Assembly: GCF_000527135.1 (NCBI RefSeq)
Contig: NZ_AZUP01000001.1
Coordinates: forward strand, 1,550,001 to 1,614,000
Direction: 5' to 3'
Length of the DNA stretch: 64,000 bases
Origin: Methyloversatilis discipulorum
GTDB taxonomy: Bacteria > Pseudomonadota > Gammaproteobacteria > Burkholderiales > Rhodocyclaceae
The notes under the pieces were generated by a model that was not told the origin of the DNA, searched no databases, and was given only the letters and a program-made list of their open reading frames with translations. Made by a program: the position numbers and the translations under genes. Shown here one piece after another: positions 8,772-20,355 of this stretch. How positions within the stretch are numbered: position 1 is the stretch's first letter; every line of letters begins with the position of its first letter.

Positions 8772-9194
8772 ATGGAGCGCAACACGCGGCAACGCACGGC
8801 AATCCTGGGCGCGATCGAGCAGGCAGGGCGACCTTTGTCACCGGGCGAGCTACATGATCTTGCGCGAGTCGACGCCCCGTCGCTCGGGCTGGCAACGGTC
8901 TATCGCAACATCAAATCGCTGCTCGGCGAAGGCCTGATCCGCGAAGTAAGCCTGCCGAGCGAAGCGCCACGCTACGAACTTGCGGATCTGGGACATCACC
9001 ACCACTTCAAGTGCCGGCAATGCGAGCGGGTGTTCGACATCGCCGAATGCTGTACCGACTGGCATGCGATGGCGCCGGCGGGCTTTCAGGTCGAAGCGCA
9101 CGACGTCACGCTGTTCGGTCTGTGCAGCCAATGTGCGGATGGAAAGGACCCCGTGCAGGCGCCGCACGGAGGCCACACCCACCGGCACGCTTGA
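8772..9194 (+). CDS. zur: Fur-family metalloregulator, probably Zur
   Basis: A 140-residue repressor of the Fur superfamily. The winged-helix part (about 1-70) includes LGLATVYRNIKSL, the recognition-helix signature. The dimer/metal part has HHHH at 75-78, CRQC at 81-84 and CSQC at 118-121, the two CxxC pairs of the structural zinc site. The C-terminus ends in a His-rich tail (132-139). I call it Zur rather than Fur because of the neighbours: a ZnuD-like receptor, a COG0523 GTPase and PEP-CTERM proteins of the zinc-repressed type. The call rests on context; iron or another metal cannot be excluded from sequence alone. No palindrome is seen before its own start. Confidence 0.75.
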   Translation: MERNTRQRTAILGAIEQAGRPLSPGELHDLARVDAPSLGLATVYRNIKSLLGEGLIREVSLPSEAPRYELADLGHHHHFKCRQCERVFDIAECCTDWHAMAPAGFQVEAHDVTLFGLCSQCADGKDPVQAPHGGHTHRHA

Positions 9195-9236
9195 GGCCGT
9201 TTGACAACGGCCGTCGGACCGGCGGCTCGTTGATGA

Positions 9237-9252
9237 AAATGTTATATCATTT
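9237..9252. promoter_or_regulatory. candidate Zur operator A
   Basis: A 16-bp AT-rich imperfect palindrome of the form AAATG-N6-CATTT, matching its reverse complement at 14 of 16 positions. It ends 33 bases before the start of the first PEP-CTERM gene and stands out in GC-rich surroundings. It resembles the TTATA-containing Zur boxes of proteobacteria. Confidence 0.5.
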
Positions 9253-9285
9253 GCGAATGATCCACGATGATGGAGACTGTCTTCC

Positions 9286-10125
9286 ATGCACGCATTCGCA
9301 CGAACGGCCGCACTCGCCCTTTCCCTTCAGTTCCCGCTGCTGGCGCACGCCATCCACTTCGACGTCAAGGTCGGCCTCGACGGCCCGGTGTCGACGCCCG
9401 GCAGCCAGCTGACCACCGGCTTCTTCGGTGATCTGCCCATCACCACGCTACCGGTGGACACCCTTACCGGCTACAACGTGTTTCCGGGCGATTTCGGCGA
9501 TTTCGAAGGGGGTCCGCGCGCCACTGACGACCCGGGTTTCCAGTCCTTCGCCGGTGCGCTGGCGGCAGGTGACGTACTCGGCTATCGCGCGCTCGGCACC
9601 CTGCAGCAGTGGGACGCGGTCAGCGGCACCTGGAGCGATGCCCAGGCAGGCATCGGCATACGTCTGTATGGCGGCGCGCCACCGGCGGTGGCGGAAGCCT
9701 ATCTGACCTACCTGATGATGCCGCAGTACGCGCCGCCGAACGCACTGGCGAACTACCAGTACTACATGAATGGCACGCTGTTTTCCGGTACCGGCATTTC
9801 CGGCCCGGACGCGGCATTCATCGACGGTGCCAGCAGCTCCGGCACCTTCCATACCCACTTCGACTTCTTCATCGAAGGTGCGGCCCCGGCCACCGCCTAC
9901 ATGATCACGCTGCAACTGACCGACGATGCCGTGATCGGCGGACGGGGCCTCTATGAAGATTCCGAGCCGTTCCACATCGTGTTCAATTACGGGCTGCCGC
10001 AAGCGCAGTACGACGCCGCCTTCCTGTCGCGCGTGACACCGGCCGTACCCGAACCTTCGGCAGCGGCAATGCTGGCGCTCGGCCTCGGACTGCTCGCTCT
10101 GGCCCGCCGCCGCGTCAGAAGCTGA
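9286..10125 (+). CDS. PEP-CTERM exported protein, zinc-regulon type 1
   Basis: A 279-residue exported protein of unknown function. It has an N-terminal signal peptide (1-22) and a C-terminal PEP-CTERM sorting tail at 254-279: the VPEP motif, a hydrophobic helix, then an Arg cluster. Such tails are cut by an exosortase, which is not in this window. The mature part is a paralogue of the protein at 12427. They share the order GYxxFxGxFxDxxGG, TDDPGF, an FHTHFDF segment with two His and an Asp, and EPFHIVFNYGL near the end. The conserved His/Asp residues could bind metal. The gene follows zur and has a palindromic operator candidate upstream. It converges on the TonB receptor gene, and the two overlap by 11 bases. 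Confidence 0.8.
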   Translation: MHAFARTAALALSLQFPLLAHAIHFDVKVGLDGPVSTPGSQLTTGFFGDLPITTLPVDTLTGYNVFPGDFGDFEGGPRATDDPGFQSFAGALAAGDVLGYRALGTLQQWDAVSGTWSDAQAGIGIRLYGGAPPAVAEAYLTYLMMPQYAPPNALANYQYYMNGTLFSGTGISGPDAAFIDGASSSGTFHTHFDFFIEGAAPATAYMITLQLTDDAVIGGRGLYEDSEPFHIVFNYGLPQAQYDAAFLSRVTPAVPEPSAAAMLALGLGLLALARRRVRS

Positions 10126-12232
10126 TCGTCATGCCGACCTCCACACTGCGCCCTGGCTCCGGCGAGAAAGAGCGCAGAAAGGAGGTCGCATTGCGTATTT
10201 CCGCATCGAGCAGGTTGCGCACGCGCAGGAAGACCGTCATTTCGCTGTCGCCGGTCAGCCGCGTCAGATGGTTCAGATTGGCGTCGACGCGCGTGTAGCC
10301 ATCGCTCGGCGTTTCATTGATGCCCGGCCGGTCCTGGTCGGCGTAGCGGGTCACCCGCAACCGCCCGTCCCACGCGCTCTTGCGGAAGGCGATCTGGACG
10401 CCGTAGCGCAGCGGCGGCATGCGCGGCAGATCCTGATTCAGTGCAGCAAGCCGTCCGTCGACCCTGTCCACGAATACCGACCCGTCGAGGTCGCCCGCCG
10501 GTGTGGCGCGCCACTTGTAGCTCACCTCCGCCTCAAAGCCCTTCAGCCGCGCGTCGGACTGTGTGTGCTGCACCAGCGGCAGGCATTCTTCCAGTCGCAC
10601 GCAGTTGCCCTGGAACGGAAACAGGCCGGCTGCCGCCCGCGCCGTGTTGTAGAAACCGGGCAAGGTCTGCTGGTAGATGTAATTGTCCGCCTCGTTCGAA
10701 AACAGGTTGAGTCGTGCGCCGACGCGCGCGGTATCCAGTTCGATGCCAAGTTCCAGCCCACGCATCGTTTCGATGGCCAGATCCGGGCGACCGATTTCAT
10801 AGGTGCGCGTCGCCAGATGCGGGCCCAGCGAATACAGCTCGTGGATTTCCGGTGCCCGCTGCGAAATCGAGCGGGTGATACTCAGTTTCAATTCATCGCT
10901 GGCCTGCCAGTGCAGCGCCAGCGAACGACTCTGCGGCGCCATCCGGCGCGCCGGAAAGGGCACACCCAGTCGCGGTTCCGCCTGCATGCGCACCAGATCG
11001 GTCCGCCAGCCCGCTTCAAGCGTCCACGCTGACCAGCGGAACTGCTGCACGGCATACAACGCCGACGACCGCAGTTCGGTGCGCGGCACGAACGATTCGA
11101 CCCCCACTGCGGAAAAGCGCCGCTGCACGTGGTGTACACCTATCGTGCCCGGAAGGTTTTCGTGCGCGCGGTGTGCCAGTTCGAGACGCTGTTCGATGGC
11201 ATCGTTACGGAAGGTCGTAGCCACCGTGCCATTGTCGATCTCGTCGTGGCGGTATTCGATATGGCTGCCGGTGTAGCGTATGCCTTCGAGCCAGCTCTCG
11301 CCCACCCACTCGGCGCGGGTATCCACACGCCGGTTGTCCATGTCGATGCGGACGCGGTTTTCACCGCCATGCGAATGTCCGGGCGCCGGCGGGATGCCAT
11401 AGTTGTTCGAACCGTTGTTCACCGCGGCGCCGAGCAGTACGTTGCCGATGAACAGACTGCCGCCCAGCGTGCCGGCGGCCGAACGGGCATCGCTGTTGCG
11501 CAGGCGGCCACAGCTGTTTTCGGTGTTGATCTGCCCGAACTGCTGCAGCACCGCCGCGTCGTCGACGGCGCAACCGGCGATGTGGCTGTCCCCCCTGTTG
11601 CGGCTGGATGCACTGCCGCGCAATACGAATTCCTGCCGCCCGGCATCGAGGCGCACGGCGCCGACGCGTTCCGCGCCATTGAAGTTGTAGCTGGTGTCGA
11701 ACACACCTTCGACACCGCGCAGGGGAACGCGCAAAGGAATGCGCCCGTCCTCGACATCGACCACGCCGCCGATGGCGCCCCCGCCGTAGCGCACGGTCGC
11801 GGGCCCGCGCAATACACGCACCGACTCAGCCAGCGTCGCATCGGCGGTGGACGCGTGGTCCGGGCTGAAGGTCGACGCATCGTGCGTGGCGCCGCCATTG
11901 CTGAGCACCTTGACACGCGCGCCGCTCAGTCCGCGGATGACCGGCAGGCCGACCCCGGAACCGAAGCTTGCGTTGTGCACGCCCGCCTCTTCACCCACGG
12001 TTTCGCCCAGCGTGGCACCCCGGCGGTCCCGCAGTGCGCCGCCGCGCAACAGCGTGCCCGGTCGGCCGGGTTCCCGCACGTCTTCGTTTTCACGCGTGCC
12101 TTCGACTTCCACCGGCGCCAGTTCTATGGCGGCCGCCTCCTGACCCCAGGTGGACGGGCAATGCAGCAGATGCGCGAGCAAGCTCGCCAACGCGACGTGG
12201 CGGCCGCATGAAGCGCTGAACGGGGGTTTCAC
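10115..12232 (-). CDS. TonB-dependent outer-membrane receptor, ZnuD-like
   Basis: A 705-residue outer-membrane beta-barrel receptor, likely for zinc uptake. A signal peptide (about 1-30) is followed by a TonB-box region (IELAPVEVEG), then the plug with LPVIRGLSGARVKVL, and FSPDHASTADATLAE plus VLRGPATVRYGGGAIGGVVD, a signature close to meningococcal ZnuD and related zinc receptors. A His-containing extracellular loop (GHSHGGEN) follows, and the C-terminus ends in the barrel signal SVEVGMTISF. The start is GTG at 12232. It is divergent from the PEP-CTERM gene at 12427 and shares the AT-rich operator candidate between them. Receptor class is secure; zinc specificity is inferred from sequence resemblance and neighbours. 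Confidence 0.82.
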   Translation of the reverse strand: MKPPFSASCGRHVALASLLAHLLHCPSTWGQEAAAIELAPVEVEGTRENEDVREPGRPGTLLRGGALRDRRGATLGETVGEEAGVHNASFGSGVGLPVIRGLSGARVKVLSNGGATHDASTFSPDHASTADATLAESVRVLRGPATVRYGGGAIGGVVDVEDGRIPLRVPLRGVEGVFDTSYNFNGAERVGAVRLDAGRQEFVLRGSASSRNRGDSHIAGCAVDDAAVLQQFGQINTENSCGRLRNSDARSAAGTLGGSLFIGNVLLGAAVNNGSNNYGIPPAPGHSHGGENRVRIDMDNRRVDTRAEWVGESWLEGIRYTGSHIEYRHDEIDNGTVATTFRNDAIEQRLELAHRAHENLPGTIGVHHVQRRFSAVGVESFVPRTELRSSALYAVQQFRWSAWTLEAGWRTDLVRMQAEPRLGVPFPARRMAPQSRSLALHWQASDELKLSITRSISQRAPEIHELYSLGPHLATRTYEIGRPDLAIETMRGLELGIELDTARVGARLNLFSNEADNYIYQQTLPGFYNTARAAAGLFPFQGNCVRLEECLPLVQHTQSDARLKGFEAEVSYKWRATPAGDLDGSVFVDRVDGRLAALNQDLPRMPPLRYGVQIAFRKSAWDGRLRVTRYADQDRPGINETPSDGYTRVDANLNHLTRLTGDSEMTVFLRVRNLLDAEIRNATSFLRSFSPEPGRSVEVGMTISF

Positions 12233-12350
12233 GGCGTATTGGTTGAGAGGCGGGCCCGTGCAGTCGGTCCGCCGGATCGAGGGCGTTGTAAGGATCAGCG
12301 GCGACTCGACCTCATCTAATAAGAATCGAATGTCGCTAACATTGATGCGA

Positions 12351-12365
12351 ATAATAACGTATTAT
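12351..12365. promoter_or_regulatory. candidate Zur operator B between TonB receptor and PEP-CTERM gene
   Basis: ATAATAACGTATTAT matches its reverse complement at 12 of 15 positions and sits in an AT-rich island. It continues into ATTATCGTT, the same 9 bases found at operator candidate C. It could repress both divergent genes. Confidence 0.55.
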
Positions 12366-12426
12366 CGTTAACAGACGGTATGCCCCTCCGCCTGTTTTCC
12401 TCAACCTCTTTCCGGGAGACCTTCCG

Positions 12427-13170
12427 ATGACACATTCCGCTCGCCCCGGCCTGCGCGCCGCCGGTCTGATTTCCGCTCTTTGCCTGTCAGCACTCGCCGC
12501 GCCTGTCTTTGCAGCCGAACACGAGGGCGACATCGAAGTCGGCGCCATCGGCGGCCAGCTTGTGGTGGACCCCGAGGCCCATGCGCCCTCCACCCCCCTC
12601 GGCTACAAGATTTTCGAAGGCAATTTCCGCGACCTCGCGGGTGGCCTTTACAACACCGATGACCCCGGTTTCGTCGCCGAAGAGGGCGCCCTGGACCAGC
12701 ACGGCGCCCTGCTCACCTTCGCCGGCCTGGGTGTGCTCCAGTCGTGGAACGGCAGCGCCTGGGTGACATCGACCGCGGCTGTCGCGATCACCATTGAAGA
12801 TGTGCTTGGCGAAGTCACGACCTTCTCCGGCAGTGGCGTGAGCGCCGGCGCCAGCAGCTTCCTGGCGCAGATTTCCGGCATCGGCGACATCCACGAACAT
12901 CTGGATTTCGACCTCACCGGCGCTGATCGTGGCGTGGCATCCGCCTATCTGATCACGCTCACACTGGGTTCCCTGACCGACGTCGCGGCATCCAGTGGCC
13001 CGTATGCGGCATCGAACCCGTTCCACATCGCCTTCAACGCCGGCCTGAGCGCCGACGCCTTCGAAGGCGCCGTCGCCCAACTGGCCGCGCCGGTACCCGA
13101 ACCGGAAACCTACGCCATGCTGCTGGCCGGCCTGGGCCTGCTGGGTCTGGCCCGTCGCCGTCAGCACTGA
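12427..13170 (+). CDS. PEP-CTERM exported protein, zinc-regulon type 1 paralogue
   Basis: A 247-residue exported protein with a signal peptide (about 1-30, ending VFAA) and a PEP-CTERM tail at 223-247. Just after the signal it has an acidic/His stretch (EHEGDIEVG). It is a paralogue of the 9286 protein: GYKIFEGNFRDLAGG, TDDPGF, IHEHLDFDL and NPFHIAFNAGL occur in the same order and spacing. The HxHxDF-like segment and the later FHI segment are the best-conserved pieces and are possible metal ligands. A good ribosome-binding site (gggaga) precedes the ATG. It is followed by a stable hairpin. Function unknown; a cell-surface zinc-binding role is inferred from context only. Confidence 0.8.
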   Translation: MTHSARPGLRAAGLISALCLSALAAPVFAAEHEGDIEVGAIGGQLVVDPEAHAPSTPLGYKIFEGNFRDLAGGLYNTDDPGFVAEEGALDQHGALLTFAGLGVLQSWNGSAWVTSTAAVAITIEDVLGEVTTFSGSGVSAGASSFLAQISGIGDIHEHLDFDLTGADRGVASAYLITLTLGSLTDVAASSGPYAASNPFHIAFNAGLSADAFEGAVAQLAAPVPEPETYAMLLAGLGLLGLARRRQH

Positions 13171-13182
13171 TCCCGGCGACAA

Positions 13183-13211
13183 CCGGGGCCGACATCTGAT
13201 GCCGGCCCCGG
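13183..13211 (+). terminator. hairpin after the second PEP-CTERM gene
   Basis: A 9-bp GC stem (ccggggccg with cggccccgg), 12 bases after the stop codon, with no T-run behind it. It is possibly a transcript-end or stabilising hairpin. Confidence 0.5.
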
Positions 13212-13331
13212 AAAGAACAGCCGGCTACAGGCCGGCATGCCTGCCCGCCCTCCTCTTCTTTCCCCCAACGCTGCGTTCCGCCCCGCCTCGTCCGCCGCGT
13301 ACCGCGGCCTATACGGCAGCACCCCGCATTT

Positions 13332-13345
13332 GATAATCCATTATC
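13332..13345. promoter_or_regulatory. candidate Zur operator C
   Basis: GATAATCCATTATC has perfect 6-bp half-sites around a 2-bp centre, 60 bases before the all3515-type gene. The right half continues as ATTATCGTT, identical to the segment at operator B. A second AT-rich patch (gattatcat) lies closer to the start at about 13384. Confidence 0.6.
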
Positions 13346-13405
13346 GTTTACGGGCACCGCAGGAGCGGCTACTATTGCGACTCGATTATCATCTGGAGAA
13401 CTGAA

Positions 13406-14260
13406 ATGACCGCTGTACGTTCCATCGTGCTGCTCGCATTCGCGGCCTGCACCCAGGTCGCTCACGCTGACGAGCCGCTGCGCGCCGACGAGGGCATCGG
13501 TTTCTACATCGGCATCGACAACCTGGCCACCGTGGCGAGCGGCACCTTCGCCGGACAAGCCAATCCCAACTACGGCCGGCTCACCTTCCTGTTCGATCAC
13601 GGCAATCACTTCCACGGCATCGGCGCCTACAGCCACACCGGTACCGCCAATGCGCCGATCGTCAATGGCACCAACGCGAACAACCGCCTGCCGGAACTGT
13701 ATTCGCGCATCGACCCGCTTCCCGGCACCCTGGCACTGACCGCCGGCAGCGGCGACTACGCCGGCATGTGGGTCAGCGGCGTGCTCGGCGAAGACGTTCC
13801 GCACCACGAATACAGCTACCTCGGCATGTCGTCGATCCAGTCGCTGGCGGGGAATGCTGCCGACAGCGCAGAGGCCATCCTGTTCAACAGCAGCAGCAAC
13901 CGCTGGAATGCCGCGCTCGACGGCGTGCAGGTGGCGCTCAAGCTCGAATACGCCACCCCGGGCCTGAAAGTGGCGGCGAATGGCGACATGGACCTGTTCG
14001 ACAGCGGCAACCTCTACCTGCTGGGCGACGGCAATGCCTTCGATTTCCTGCCCACCTTCTGGGTGGATTCGGCAGCCGCCGCGGGCACCTACACGGCCCA
14101 GTTCTCGCTCGTGAATCTCGGCAGCAATACGGCCGTGCGTGATGGCGGCACCTTCTACATCGACTTCGCCGTCCCGGCGCCGGTGCCCGAACCGTCCACC
14201 TGGGCGATGCTGCTTGCCGGCCTGTTCATGCTGGGCCACGTCGCCAGCCGTCGTACCTGA
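13406..14260 (+). CDS. His-rich PEP-CTERM protein, all3515 'Zur-repressed' type
   Basis: A 284-residue exported protein with a signal peptide (1-21) and a PEP-CTERM tail at 260-284. It is rich in clustered histidines: FDHGNHFHG and the following YSHTG around residue 70, and VPHHEYSY around residue 132. It resembles the family named after Anabaena all3515, described as Zur-repressed PEP-CTERM proteins; I recognise the type from memory and could not run a search. The palindrome 60 bases upstream supports zinc control. The DUF1826 and COG0523 genes follow on the same strand, after a perfect 19-bp inverted repeat. A role in surface zinc capture is plausible but unproven. Confidence 0.72.
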   Translation: MTAVRSIVLLAFAACTQVAHADEPLRADEGIGFYIGIDNLATVASGTFAGQANPNYGRLTFLFDHGNHFHGIGAYSHTGTANAPIVNGTNANNRLPELYSRIDPLPGTLALTAGSGDYAGMWVSGVLGEDVPHHEYSYLGMSSIQSLAGNAADSAEAILFNSSSNRWNAALDGVQVALKLEYATPGLKVAANGDMDLFDSGNLYLLGDGNAFDFLPTFWVDSAAAAGTYTAQFSLVNLGSNTAVRDGGTFYIDFAVPAPVPEPSTWAMLLAGLFMLGHVASRRT

Positions 14261-14270
14261 AGCAGGCCCA

Positions 14271-14317
14271 GGCCCGCATGCGCCATGCAGCCCGCTCATG
14301 CATGGCGCATGCGGGCC
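14271..14317 (+). repeat. perfect 19-bp inverted repeat
   Basis: Left arm 14271-14289 and right arm 14299-14317 are exact reverse complements around a 9-nt loop. The hairpin starts 10 bases after the all3515-type stop and ends 9 bases before the DUF1826 start. There is no T-run, so classic intrinsic termination is unlikely. It may set the ratio of upstream to downstream product or hide the downstream start region. Confidence 0.85.
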
Positions 14318-14326
14318 GGTATCGAC

Positions 14327-14962
14327 ATGACTGCCAGACTTCAATCCTGCAACACGGCGACATCGCCCGGTACGGCCGACGCCACCGACCTGGCCGGCCT
14401 GGCGCGCATCTTCGACGCCGACTGCAATCTGGCGCGCATGCCGCGCGCCCTGCCGTCGGCCCTGTCCGACTTCCTTGACCAGGTCGCGGTGCACTCTGCG
14501 CTGCGCGGCCTGCCGCGCACCGTTCTCGACTGTGGACAGACGCTGACGCCCCATGCCCTGCCTGCCCAGGCCGGCCGGCAGATCCTGCTCGACGAAGTCC
14601 GCCTGTGCGGCGAACTGCTGTGCGACCTGACCGGCAGCCCGCGCTTCGGCCTGCGCATCGAAGTGCTCGATCGCGCCATGTGTCCGCGCTGGCACGTCGA
14701 TCAGGTCGGCCTGCGCCTGCTGGTCACCTGGCGCGGACCGGCCACCGAGTGGCTGGACGAAGCCTGCGCCGACCGCAGCCAGCTGGGCGGCGACGGCGTG
14801 ATGCGCGACAGCGCGGGCATCCGGCAAGCCCTGGCCGGTGACATCGTCTTGCTCAAGGGCGAACGCTGGCCCGGCAACGCCGGCCGCGGCGTCATCCACC
14901 GCTCGCCCTGCATTGACGACGACGCCCCGCGCATCGTCGCCGCCTTCGACTCCATCTGGTGA
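14327..14962 (+). CDS. DUF1826 domain protein of the zinc regulon
   Basis: A 211-residue cytosolic protein without signal or membrane segment, matching the DUF1826 family. That family is often found next to COG0523 zinc GTPases in zinc-limited regulons. Conserved-looking pieces are the central [22 protein letters not shown] and the C-terminal [11 protein letters not shown] with HRSP. The Trp-His-x-Asp and later His give a pattern reminiscent of a metal site in a cupin-like fold, which is inference. The ATG at 14327 is preferred; an in-frame ATG at 14285 lies inside the hairpin. Its stop overlaps the GTPase frame, so the pair is coupled. Confidence 0.75.
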
Positions 14963-14967
14963 ATACC

Positions 14968-16191
14968 ATGACTGCACGACTGCCCGTCACCGTCCTGTCC
15001 GGCTTTCTCGGCGCCGGCAAGACCACCCTGCTCAACCATGTGCTGTCGAATACCGAAGGCCGCCGCGTGGCGGTCATCGTGAATGACATGTCGGAAGTGA
15101 ACATCGACGCCCAGCTGGTGGCTCATGGCGCACAGCTGTCGCGTACCGACGCACGCATGGTCGAAATGTCCAACGGCTGCATCTGCTGCACGCTGCGCGA
15201 AGACCTGCTGATCGAAGTATCGAGACTGGCGCGCGAAGGCCGCTTCGACTATCTGCTGATCGAATCGACCGGCATTTCCGAGCCGCTGCCGGTCGCCGAA
15301 ACCTTCACTTTCGAAGACGAGGACGGCAGCAGCCTGTCATCGGTGTCGCGGCTCGACACCATGGTGACCGTGGTCGATGCGTACAACTTCCTGCGCGACT
15401 ATTCGAGCCAGGACATGATCGCCGAGCGCGGCGAATCGCTGGGCGACGAAGACCAGCGCACGGTGGTCGACCTGCTGGTCGACCAGGTCGAATTCGCCGA
15501 CGTGATCGTGCTGAACAAATGCGACCTGGTGAGCGATGCCGAACGCGAGCGACTGCACGCCATCCTGCGCGCATTGAATCCACGCGCCGACGTCGTCGAG
15601 GCCCGTGAAGGCCGCGTGCCGCTGGACCGCATCCTCGACACCGGCCGCTTCGATTTCGACGCTGCCGCCGAAGCGCCGGGCTGGCTGCAGGAAATGCGCG
15701 GCACCCACGTGCCGGAATCCGACACCTACGGCATCCGCAGCTTTTCGTGGAGCGAGCGCCGGCCCTTCCATCCGCAGCGCTTCTGGAACCTGATCCACGA
15801 CGAATGGCCCGGCGTCATCCGCAGCAAGGGTTTCTTCTGGCTGGCCAGCCGCATGGACTTCGCCGGCGAATGGGCGCAGGCCGGCGGCATCTGCCGCAAC
15901 CGCCCGGCCGGCCTGTGGTGGGCGGCGGTGGATCGCGCCGACTGGCCGACCGACCGCGACTACCTGAAGCAGATCGAAGCGCGCTGGCTGGCGCCCTTCG
16001 GCGACCGCCGGCAGGAACTGGTGTTCATCGGCATGGACATGGACGAGGCGTGGATACGCCAGCAGCTCGACGCCTGTCTGCTGACCGACGCCGAAATGGC
16101 CGCCGGCTCGTCCGCCTGGCGCGACCTGCCCGATCCTTTCGACCCGTGGTCGCTCGCTGCGGCCGACGACGAGCCGGAGCAAGGCACCTAG
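14968..16191 (+). CDS. COG0523 (ZigA/YeiR-type) zinc-associated GTPase
   Basis: A 407-residue G3E-family GTPase thought to deliver zinc to client proteins during starvation. Walker A is GFLGAGKTT (12-20), the metal motif CICC lies at 71-74 (Cys71, 73, 74), and the guanine-specificity NKCD is visible around 186. The C-terminal CobW domain contains the FWLASR and FIGMDMD segments. The ATG at 14968 gives the standard N-terminus; a GTG at 14959 overlapping the DUF1826 stop is the alternative. Being last in the zinc block supports the Zur-regulon reading. Its end overlaps the convergent response-regulator gene by 4 bases. Confidence 0.85.
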
Positions 16192-16880
16192 CGCGGCGTG
16201 GGCGGGGTCTCCGCCAGGCCCAGGCGCCGTTCGGTCACCCAGGGCACCAGGCCGACTTCGGAGGCGAGTTTCACCAGTTCGATGTCCGAACTGACGTCGA
16301 GCTTGCGTCGCGCGGTGCTCAGCTTGTTGGCCACCGTCTTCGGGCTCAGATTGAGCTGTTCGGCGATGGCATCGATCGAGTGGCCGGACACCAGCAGGCG
16401 GCACATTTCGAATTCGCGCGGCGTCAGGTAACCGAACAGCTTGGATTCCGGCAGGTAGTGCGAGAAGGCCACGCTTTCCGCCACCTGCCGGCTCAGCACG
16501 CGCTTGCCGCGCGCCACCGACTGCACCGCGTCGACCAGTTGCTCGGCCGGGCTGTCCTTGGTCAGCACACCGAGCGCGCCGGCGTCCAGCGCCTGCTGCA
16601 CCACGGTCGGATGCGAGCACATCGTGAACATGAGCACCTTGGCCTGTTCGTCGAAGGCGACGATGCGCCGCGTGGCTTCGATGCCGCTGGAGCCGGGCAG
16701 CATGATGTCCATCACCACGACGTCGGGCGCGTGCTTGCGATAGGCGGCATAGGCCTCGTCGGCGGTGCCCGCCTCGGCCGCCACCAGCAGCGACTCGTTC
16801 ATCTCCAGCAGCGCACGGTAACCGGTGCGCACGACGGCGTGGTCATCGACCAGAAGGATGCGGGTCTGTCGGTTGTTCAT
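16188..16880 (-). CDS. NarL/LuxR-type response regulator, probable mxa regulator
   Basis: A 230-residue two-component response regulator. In the receiver domain (about 6-125) the acidic pocket is Asp12/Asp13, the phospho-acceptor is Asp58 and Lys is in the TKDSP segment. A LuxR-type helix-turn-helix lies at about 151-195 ([12 protein letters not shown], then [11 protein letters not shown]). It overlaps the sensor-kinase start by 4 bases, so the two form one operon. That operon is divergent from mxaF, as with the mxaX/mxaY pair upstream of mxaF in Paracoccus, so regulation of methanol oxidation is likely. Direct evidence is absent. Confidence 0.85.
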
Positions 16881-18238
16881 GCGGTGATCTCCTGTTCGTT
16901 GCGTGCGAAGGGCAGCCGCACGGTGACGCGCCAGCCTCCGCCGTTAGCCGGGCCGGCGCTGCAGACACCACCCAGCGCCAGCGCGCGTTCGCGCATGCCC
17001 AGCATGCCCAGCCCGGCGACACCGGTCGGTATGCCATGCGCACTGCCGTTGTCCCAGATGTCGAGCTTGAGCACGCGGCCGTCGCTGCCCTGCTCGGTGC
17101 TCACGCCGATCAGCAGGCGCGAGCAGTCGGAGTGCTTGAAGGCATTGGTGACCGCCTCCTGCACGATGCGGTAGGCACTGGCCTCGACCGTCGGTCCGGC
17201 GTCGGCCGATTCACCTTCGAGGTTGAGCACCAGTTCGAGCGGCCGCGGCGCCTGTGCGCTGCGCTGTTCGACCAGCTGGCGCAGCGCGTTGTAGAGGCCC
17301 AGCGCGTCGATCTCGACCGGGTGCAGCGATTCCAGCTGCACGCGCACGCGGCCCAGCAGCTGCGCCAGATGTCCGCCCAGCGCCTCGGCGCTGCCGCTGT
17401 AGCGGGTCAGTGCCGGCTCGTTCCGGCAGGCCGCCGACAGCACTGCGACGTGCGGCTGCATCGCCACCATATAGGTGCTCATTTCGTCGTGCAGGTCGCG
17501 CGCGATGGCGCGCCGCGTCTGCTCTTCCATCACCATGATCTTGCGCAGCAGCGCCGAGCGTTCGCGGCTCACTTCGGCCAGCGAGTTGGCCATCCGGTTG
17601 AACGAGGCCGACAGCTCCGCCAGATCGGGCAGGCGGAAGGCCGGCAGGCGCGCGTCGAGACGCCCGGACTCGATGTCGCGCAAGGCGGTGCGCAGCGCAT
17701 GCACCGGCTCCAGCGCGCGACAGATGGCCCAGTACAGCAGCAGACCGAGCAGCACGCTGTAGGCCACCGTCAGATAGCTCAGTCGCTTGAAGCCTTCCCA
17801 CTTTTCGCGCATTTCGTCGGACGGCATCGGCGACACGCGATAGAAGCCGGCGATCTCGCCATTGAGGCGCCACGGCTTCATGCGCACCGTGCCGTCGGCC
17901 TGCACCGGCGCTTCGTCCGGCGCCGGCCATCCACCGGCACCTCGGGTGTCGGACGAGGCGAGCACGCGACCCGCGAGGTCGAGCACGTCGATGCGCACGT
18001 GGCGGATGTCCTTCATGCGCTGCACGCGTTCGAGCAGCGAATCGAGCATGGGCGAGCGGCCGTCGCCGGCGTTCAGCGGCATGTCCTCCGGCAGCAGCAA
18101 CAGCACCAGCCGCGTACCCGACTCGATCTCCTCGACCGAGTCGCTGCGCCAGGCCTTGTAGTGCAGGAAGCCGTGCGTCAGCAGCAGCAGGCACATGAGC
18201 ACAAGCACGATCAGCAGCAGGCGGTTCTTCAGTGTCAT
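16877..18238 (-). CDS. NarX/DesK-type sensor histidine kinase, probable mxa regulator
   Basis: A 453-residue membrane sensor kinase. Membrane helices lie at about 6-22 and 154-172 and flank a periplasmic sensing part (about 30-150). Then come a HAMP linker (to about 225), the HisKA_3 dimerisation helix with phospho-acceptor His250 in RDLHDE, and an HATPase domain ([10 protein letters not shown], then [11 protein letters not shown]). The start at 18238 gives the first hydrophobic helix immediately; the longer open frame has no family-like sequence. It pairs with the overlapping response regulator. The signal is unknown; methanol or a metabolite is a guess from the position next to mxaF. Confidence 0.85.
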
Positions 18239-18528
18239 TCGGCAGGGATGGAAGTGCGGCGGGACGTCCGGCTTCAGGGGTGCCGGAGCCGTCGATGGTA
18301 GCGCCGGAGCCGAGGGACAAAATCCCCTCGTTGCAATGCGCAGCACACCGCAATCGCTGCACTGCACATTCCTATAGTTCGCTCGACCGCAGCGCTGACC
18401 GGCTCTCGACGACAGCGCCCGCGGTTGCGATCGCCAGGTCCTCAGGTCTGTTCGGGCCCGGCATCTCGATCGCATGGAAGCGAATGCGCGTATCCCCACG
18501 CGCCCCACCCAAGGAGGAGAAAACCGCT
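18239..18528. promoter_or_regulatory. divergent control region of the two-component system and mxa operon
   Basis: 290 bases without a gene between the kinase start and mxaF. A TATAGT at 18373-18378 is a possible -10 element for mxaF, without a convincing -35 at the normal distance, as expected for an activator-dependent promoter. TTGCAATGCGCA and a related GCAATCGCTGCA are seen at 18331-18362. The mxaF ribosome-binding site is AGGAGG at 18512. Confidence 0.45.
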
Positions 18529-20355
18529 ATGTCACTGAAAAGAGCAACCGGCCAGACCGGTCTGCAGAAGAAACGTCTGAGCCGTGCCGTCGCCACCGCG
18601 ATCGCCGGCTTTGCGCTGGCGTCCGCATCGGGTGCCGCGCTCGCCAACGCCGAGCTGATCAAGCTTTCGCAGGACGATCGTCAGTGGGTCATGCAGGGCA
18701 AGGACTACGACCACAGCCACTACAGCGGCCTGAAGCAGATCAACCGCAGCAACGTGAAGAACCTGAAGGCCGCGTGGACCTTCTCGACCGGCGTGCTGCA
18801 CGGCCACGAGGGTGGTCCGCTGGTGGTGAACGGCATCATGTACATCCACACGCCCTTCCCCAACATCACCTACGCGATCGATCTCGACAACCCGAACAAG
18901 ATCCTGTGGGAACACAAGCCCAAGCAGGACGCATCGGTCCGCGCGGTCGCCTGCTGCGACGTCGTGAACCGTGGCCTCGCTTACGGCGACGGCAAGATCT
19001 TCAAGACCCAGCTCGACGGCCACATCGTTGCGCTGGACGCCAAGACCGGCAAGGAACTGTGGAAGATGGAGAACTCCGACCCGAAGGTCGGCTCCACGCT
19101 GACGCAGGCACCGATGGTGGTCGAGGACATGGTCATCGTCGGTTCGTCGGGTGCGGAGCTGGGCGTGCGTGGCTACGTCACCGCCTACCGCATCAAGGAC
19201 GGCAAGCAGGTCTGGCGCGCCTACGCCACCGGCCCGGACGAGGACATCCTGCTGGCTGACGACTTCAACATGGCGAACCCGCACTACGGTCAGAAGGGCC
19301 TCGGCACCTCGACCTGGGAAGGCGACGCATGGAAGATCGGCGGCGGCACCAACTGGGGCTGGTACGCCTACGACCCGGAACTGAAGCTGATGTACTACGG
19401 CTCGGGCAACCCGGCACCGTGGAACGAAACCATGCGCCCGGGCGACAACAAGTGGACCATGGCCATCTGGGGTCGCGACGTGAAGACCGGCAAGGCCAAG
19501 TTCGCCTTCCAGAAGACGCCGCATGACGAGTGGGACTACGCCGGCGTGAACTGGATCGGCCTGTCCGACCAGGTCGTCGACGGCAAGAAGCAGAAGCTGC
19601 TGACCCACCCGGACCGCAACGGCATCGTCTACACCCTGAACCGCGAGAACGGCAACCTCGTTCGCGCCGACAAGATCGACCCGTCGGTGAACGTGTTCAA
19701 GGGCTACGACATGAAGAAGGGCGTGCCCATCCGCGATCCCGAGTACTCGACCCGCATGGACCATCTGGCCAAGGGCATCTGCCCGTCCGCCATGGGCTAC
19801 CACAACCAGGGCCACGACTCGATCGACAAGAAGCGCGAACTGGTCATGCTCGGCACCAACATGATCTGCATGGACTGGGAGCCGTTCATGCTGCCCTACC
19901 GCGCAGGTCAGTTCTTCGTCGGCGCCACGCTGAACATGTATGCCACCCCGGGCAACAACGGCAACATGGGTCAGGTCAAGGCCTACGACGTCAAGACGTC
20001 GAAGTTCAAGTGGGTCAAGGACGAGAAGTTCTCGGTCTGGGGTGGTACCACCTCCACCGCCGGCGACCTCGTGTTCTACGGCACGCTGGACGGTCTGATC
20101 AAGGCGGTCGATGCCGACAACGGCAAGACGCTGTGGGAATTCAAGCTCCCGTCCGGCGTCATCGGCCACCCGGTCACCTATGAGCACAAGGGCAAGCAGT
20201 ACGTCGCCATCTACTACGGTGTGGGCGGCTGGCCCGGCGTCGGCCTCGTGTTCGACCTGACCGACCCGACCGCAGGTCTCGGTGCAGTGGGCGCCTTCAA
20301 GGAGCTCCAGCAGTACACCAAGATGGGCGGCGGCGTGATGGTGTTCTCGCTGTAA
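18529..20355 (+). CDS. mxaF: methanol dehydrogenase large subunit (calcium type, PQQ)
   Basis: Periplasmic PQQ-dependent methanol dehydrogenase alpha subunit, oxidising methanol to formaldehyde and passing electrons to cytochrome cL. The 608-residue precursor has a signal peptide (1-39, ending ALA), the adjacent-cysteine pair at 142-143, metal ligands Glu210 and Asn294, and catalytic Asp336 in EWDYAG. Residue 338, two after the catalytic Asp, is Ala; lanthanide-type XoxF enzymes have Asp there. GAELGVRGY and the mxaI gene downstream also fit MxaF. The C-terminus stops at MVFSL, without the roughly 20-residue tail of Methylobacterium MxaF. Start chosen from the strong AGGAGG and the signal peptide. 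Confidence 0.96.

Follow-up and report, generated by a model that had tools for sequence, protein, structure and literature searches.

A paired PEP-CTERM protein family linked to a ZnuD-like receptor in a putative zinc-starvation locus of Methyloversatilis discipulorum

Background

The sections of the ZepA (All3515) study drawn on here describe Anabaena ZepA as a Zur-controlled mediator of zinc uptake that is found in the exoproteome (PMC10957091). According to the same sections, the neighbors of zepA in proteobacteria include Fur-type genes and genes for TonB-dependent transporters (TBDTs), COG0523 proteins, and further PEP-CTERM proteins, a 16-bp palindrome precedes zepA, and a transfer of zinc from ZepA to an outer-membrane receptor has been proposed (PMC10957091). 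The present study concerns a 64-kb stretch of Methyloversatilis discipulorum DNA (positions 1550001-1614000 of a single-contig genome of 4.31 Mb; the whole stretch is hereafter called the window), in which zepA stands beside the gene of a ZnuD-like receptor and two paralogous PEP-CTERM genes, A and B. We regard this locus, on the basis of its sequence, as a probable zinc-starvation system (roughly 60%), i.e., a Zur-controlled surface module that would capture zinc for the TonB receptor. What is new here is the A/B family, together with the triad that it forms with the receptor; ZepA is already described. To our knowledge, most PEP-CTERM proteins have no assigned job.

A first-pass annotation of the window, made from the sequence, had called such a surface system little studied. 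That claim is not upheld, as ZepA and its surroundings of Zur, TBDT, COG0523, and PEP-CTERM genes are already in print (PMC10957091), and the ideas of a regulon and of extracellular capture are therefore partly known.

Results

The genes of the locus are listed below; all of them were found as open reading frames (ORFs) where the first-pass annotation had placed them.

8772..9194, + strand, Zur-like Fur-family repressor gene (PF01475, 74.5 bits; best PDB sequence matches 3mwm, 2o03, and 7vo0)
9286..10125, + strand, A, PEP-CTERM protein, A-type of the A/B family, 279 amino acids (aa)
10115..12232, - strand, ZnuD-like TonB-dependent receptor (PDB match ZnuD)
12427..13170, + strand, B, PEP-CTERM protein, B-type of the A/B family, 247 aa
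13406..14260, + strand, ZepA, all3515 family PEP-CTERM protein (NF040463, 285.9 bits, cut-off 75)
14285..14962, + strand, DUF1826 protein (PF08856, 166.3 bits)
14959..16191, + strand, ZigA-type COG0523 GTPase (NF038288, 688.6 bits, cut-off 600)

A and B are indeed paralogous PEP-CTERM proteins, with 90 of 269 positions identical (BLASTP, 1e-26). The PEP-CTERM tail (PF07589, Pfam cut-off 20.7 bits) scores 28.9 bits in A, 37.8 bits in B, and 24.1 bits in ZepA, and in A and B it is the sole NCBIfam or Pfam family above cut-off. Neither protein shows kinship with ZepA: NF040463 is not listed for them at E ≤ 1, and hhalign against ZepA gives a probability of 2.8 over 39 columns. Searches of open-licence papers gave no description of the pair. 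Both histidines of an HxH motif are invariant in a 25-row A/B alignment, and the motif is present in 73 of 77 A/B domain frames; of the four frames without it, three are partial copies (loci L098, L099, and L113) and one is a full copy that has diverged (L097). Nine A rows all keep the histidine that adjoins the predicted mature N-terminus, and the N-termini of B are rich in His and Asp in some loci. AlphaFold2 predicts a confident β-sandwich for A (predicted local distance difference test score, 93.3). PEP or PEA tails end 52 of the 77 domain frames, and the rest have variant hydrophobic tails, fusions, or no tail.

Several fusions involve the A domain. In L146 (934 aa) and L147 (933 aa), which represent two genomes of one genus, passenger repeats and an autotransporter barrel come after the A domain. 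A single open frame of 2134 residues at L054:2222-8626 contains the A domain, passenger repeats, an autotransporter barrel, and the plug and barrel of a TonB receptor, and this receptor part looks complete. In L148, B (8948-10399) ends in a (DH)n tail and A (15877-17829) is joined to a Kelch propeller. A-type frames with several hundred extra residues and no Pfam family match were also seen at L109:7108-9321 and L110:9908-12118.

The receptor had been described as ZnuD-like, and Neisseria ZnuD (4rdr) is its sole PDB match at E ≤ 1e-10 (4.1e-60). Its NF038289 score is 308.8 bits against a cut-off of 950 bits, and it is therefore ZnuD-like, not ZnuD. After ten repeat loci (L100-L105, L107, L111, L112, and L115) were left out, 38 A/B loci were examined, in which a receptor frame was counted if intact, truncated at a contig end, or interrupted. 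Such a frame is present in 35 of the 38, with or without ZepA. The three loci that lack it are L053, where a single B stands in a genome that has two further sets; L099, which lies at the edge of its contig; and L094, in which A adjoins zepA, with B and the receptor on another contig (L093). B lies 3.4 kb from the receptor in L148, and a frame with a spermine-synthase domain is located between them.

The A/B loci occur in at least 12 genera (five named loci may fall in the same genera). In a set of 61 genomes (the own genome and its relatives), 11 have full-length A and B, i.e., the own genome, congeners G001, G002, G003, G005, G006, G008, G010, and G012, and also G041 and G060, and ZepA is found in 10. 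At the order level (399 genomes), A/B occur in 14 genomes and ZepA in 12; both are present in 11, A/B only in 3 (G060, G107, and G309), ZepA only in 1 (G052), and neither in 384. This co-occurrence has a Fisher probability of 5e-18, or 1e-16 without the window genome, with kinship among genomes ignored. Since the Methylobacillus genomes G060 and G107, as well as G309, lack ZepA, the A-receptor-B set can stand without it. Draws from the class and the phylum, own genome included, gave A/B in 5 of 369 and 3 of 398 genomes, respectively. When species genomes were scanned with A-type patterns, 17 titled loci were obtained, including those of Methylobacillus, Aquincola, Rubrivivax, and a Pseudomonadales metagenome-assembled genome (MAG). 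The gene order in all eight congeners is zur (forward), B (reverse), receptor (forward), and A (reverse), followed by zepA in seven and by no zepA in L048. The A-receptor-B block of the window (9286-13170) is inverted as a unit relative to all eight; a clear inverted repeat flanking this block was not found.

Three palindromes with the appearance of operators are located in the locus as follows.

9231..9254, no strand, operator-like palindrome before A (motif matrix; unreported by the model without window sites)
12350..12371, no strand, operator-like palindrome between receptor and B (sole place in the genome at E ≤ 10 with the congener-built model)
13329..13349, no strand, operator-like palindrome before zepA (motif matrix; unreported by the congener-built model)

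The palindromes noticed in the first pass are beyond chance: TGATAATNNATTATCA, with at most three mismatches, gives 6 matches in the window against 0.13 expected, and 0 of 100 shuffles reach 6. Three of these matches are the first-pass sites, one at 13376 is just before zepA, and two are elsewhere (226 and 3677). When 108 upstream stretches, including those of related loci and shared divergent promoters, were searched for palindromic motifs, two emerged: AATGATAATGCATTATCATT, of 20 bp, and TAATGCAACTNAGTTGCATTA, of 21 bp. The 20-bp matrix, which was learned partly on the window sites, exceeds 15 bits in the window only at 9232, 12350, and 13329. A site above the 99% shuffle level is present in the B/receptor upstream regions of 28 of 31 loci, where the matrices were learned on the same sequences and the start codons were chosen by script. 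The whole genome was scanned at E ≤ 10 with two models. R2, built from congener sites only, reports one place, on both strands, the receptor/B promoter (E 0.17). R1, to which the window sites contributed, detects the three of them and no other place (E 0.09 to 2.8). A plain pattern with at most three mismatches finds 13 places, and its reversed control finds 5; among the 13, the receptor/B site ranks first (1 mismatch), and the zepA site (2 mismatches) is level with one place elsewhere.

Similar sites are present in other genera. The zepA palindrome of Aquincola recurs before receptor/B, with 5 strand matches against 0.03 expected. The E. coli Zur motif, as quoted in the part of PMC6103462 used here, is found between receptor and B in L149 (0 and 1 mismatch), and in L148 it is found with 1 mismatch before the likely ATG of B, yet within the longest listed frame. 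At up to three mismatches, L148 has 8 matches against 1.75 expected, and 0 of 200 shuffles reach this number; L116 has the motif only at 2 to 3 mismatches, which 9 of 200 shuffles equal. Two operator types roughly track two subtypes of the linked Fur-family proteins across genera (L052, L109, and L110 versus the window, L044, and L088), with L089 mixed, as if a single module had passed from one regulator to another.

The regulator at 8772 is a Fur-family protein with two CxxC pairs and a histidine tail, as had been recognized. It has the Fur-family fold (PF01475) and structural CxxC pairs expected of Zur, and its cysteines (Cys81/Cys84 and Cys118/Cys121) are invariant in eight homologues; the C-terminal tail is HGGHTHRHA. 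Its three best PDB matches (3mwm, 2o03, and 7vo0) have E-values of 2e-16 to 4e-16, and 2o03 is titled as a probable zinc uptake regulation protein. Much weaker is the match to the E. coli Zur chain (3.8e-5), and a Fur chain is intermediate (1.5e-12). The genome encodes three Fur-family proteins; the strongest by far, at 156 bits against 74.4 bits for 8772, is encoded elsewhere. The third (L003, G000:C1:1932193-1935468; 62.3 bits) is perhaps, as a guess, of the PerR or Irr kind.

As for the neighboring genes, the PEP-CTERM protein with a His cluster proved to be ZepA, with the motif H-X2-9-H-F/Y-H present as HGNHFH, and the DUF1826 gene was likewise identified by its Pfam family. The COG0523 GTPase has CobW domains (Pfam) and the CxCC motif as CICC, in agreement with the first reading, and exceeds the ZigA cut-off.

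The genome contains two exosortase genes. PEP-CTERM proteins are numerous in it; the A/B search gives 42 matches, most of them to the shared tail. No match to the ZnuA family was found in this genome, whereas 11 of 14 control genomes have one; another inner-membrane importer is therefore to be expected. A long frame at 18232-20355 of the window looks like a PQQ-dependent alcohol dehydrogenase, which would be expected of a methylotroph.

Discussion

The zinc-starvation reading is favored because ZepA, ZigA, and the ZnuD-like receptor share one locus. The presence of the receptor in 35 of 38 A/B loci, the display of A on autotransporters in L146, L147, and L054, the co-occurrence of A/B with ZepA, the conserved HxH motif, the His/Asp-rich N-termini of B, and the (DH)n tail lend it further support, as do the operators, the Zur boxes of L148 and L149, the two exosortases, and the lack of a ZnuA match. 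The zinc-loaded Zur-like repressor would bind the palindromes before A, between receptor and B, and before zepA and would be released upon zinc shortage. A, B, and ZepA would then be exported, and processing of their PEP-CTERM tails by exosortases would leave them on the outer membrane or just beyond it. A and B may bind zinc via the conserved HxH, probably together with N-terminal histidines, and pass it to the ZnuD-like TonB receptor for entry into the periplasm, and ZigA would allot the scarce cytoplasmic zinc. In this scheme, the gene content, paralogy, operators, A/B-receptor linkage, autotransporter-borne A, one A-autotransporter-receptor frame, and two exosortases are computed; the metal, its binding site, the surface position, the transfer step, and the regulation are what we infer.

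Several results weigh against this scheme. The regulator scores far under the enterobacterial Zur equivalog model NF008646 (31.9 bits against a cut-off of 167), the NCBIfam list returned for it holding no comparable model for other Zur branches, and its top NCBIfam score is with a PerR model (64.1 bits, cut-off 200). Sites above the 99% shuffle level are present in only 10 of 16 zepA and 14 of 28 A upstream regions, perhaps partly owing to the script-chosen start codons, and R2 reports neither the A site nor the zepA site in the genome at E ≤ 10. At up to two mismatches, L149 has 5 matches to the E. coli motif against 0.79 expected, a number that 4 of 200 shuffles reach, and L097 and L146 have no E. 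coli-type Zur box. The A-autotransporter-receptor fusion of L054 is known from one MAG.

The first-pass claim of a Zur regulon is supported in part, by one operator class before A, receptor/B, and zepA, by the recovery of receptor/B with R2, and by the E. coli-type Zur boxes of two distant loci, L148 and L149. Its surface-capture layer is consistent with the receptor linkage and with A on autotransporters; the assumption that the three PEP-CTERM proteins are of one kind does not hold, as no kinship of ZepA with A/B was found. Lasting anchoring by exosortase is unproven, given that Anabaena ZepA is reported in the exoproteome in the part of the source used (PMC10957091).

The same locus and Zur control would also fit A and B that carry no zinc, i.e., starvation-induced surface or matrix proteins such as adhesins or receptor covers, with ZepA alone supplying zinc. 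We consider this unlikely, although it is the likeliest of the alternatives. A surface protein acting with the receptor is favored by the linkage in 35 of 38 loci and the A domains on autotransporters, in one case fused with a receptor.

It is improbable that the regulator and the locus respond to another metal or signal (iron, manganese, or peroxide) with zinc secondary. The TGATAAT half-site recalls Fur boxes, and the PerR model gives the top NCBIfam score, which is under cut-off; on the other hand, ZepA and ZigA are above cut-off with a ZnuD-like receptor adjoining, and a much stronger Fur-family protein is encoded elsewhere in the genome. Fur-family genes of this kind cannot be identified by sequence alone, according to the sections used of PMC10957091, a point in favor of another signal, against which stand the titled zinc uptake regulator among the best PDB matches and the boxes of the E. 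coli Zur type that precede B in L148 and L149. Slightly less probable still is uptake of copper or another metal by A/B with this receptor, as with the surface copper proteins that take part in metal uptake in some methylotrophs: Methyloversatilis and Methylobacillus are methylotrophs and HxH motifs bind copper too, but the locus shares its operators with zepA within this genome, and ZnuD is the nearest receptor of known structure.

Returning to zinc capture, the proposal that A/B form a second, independent protein-based zinc-scavenging module is one that we find evenly balanced. Such a module would be a paired surface HxH family with its own ZnuD-like receptor, carried by PEP-CTERM tails or autotransporters and capable of fusion to the receptor, which works beside or instead of ZepA and, here, without ZnuA. 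If so, a widespread but sporadic pair would gain a function, and the route of zinc from a secreted protein to an outer-membrane receptor, the question raised for ZepA, would become directly testable in the A-receptor-B triad and in the natural A-autotransporter-receptor frame.

Among known systems, azurin with OprC concerns copper and a single protein, not a PEP-CTERM pair. There, too, a metalloprotein outside the cell interacts with a TonB-dependent receptor (cited in the part of PMC10957091 used here). Compared with Neisseria ZnuD, its sole PDB relative at the threshold used, the window receptor remains below the family cut-off and is accompanied by the exported A/B proteins. A further close system is that of ZepA, of which the ORF at 13406 is a member and for which Zur control, a PEP-CTERM tail, TonB receptors, and COG0523 neighbors are described; other PEP-CTERM genes near zepA are mentioned, with no family described in the parts of the paper covered (PMC10957091). 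A and B differ from ZepA in that they show no sequence kinship with it, are paralogues of each other tied as a pair to a single ZnuD-like receptor, and also occur in ZepA-free genomes.
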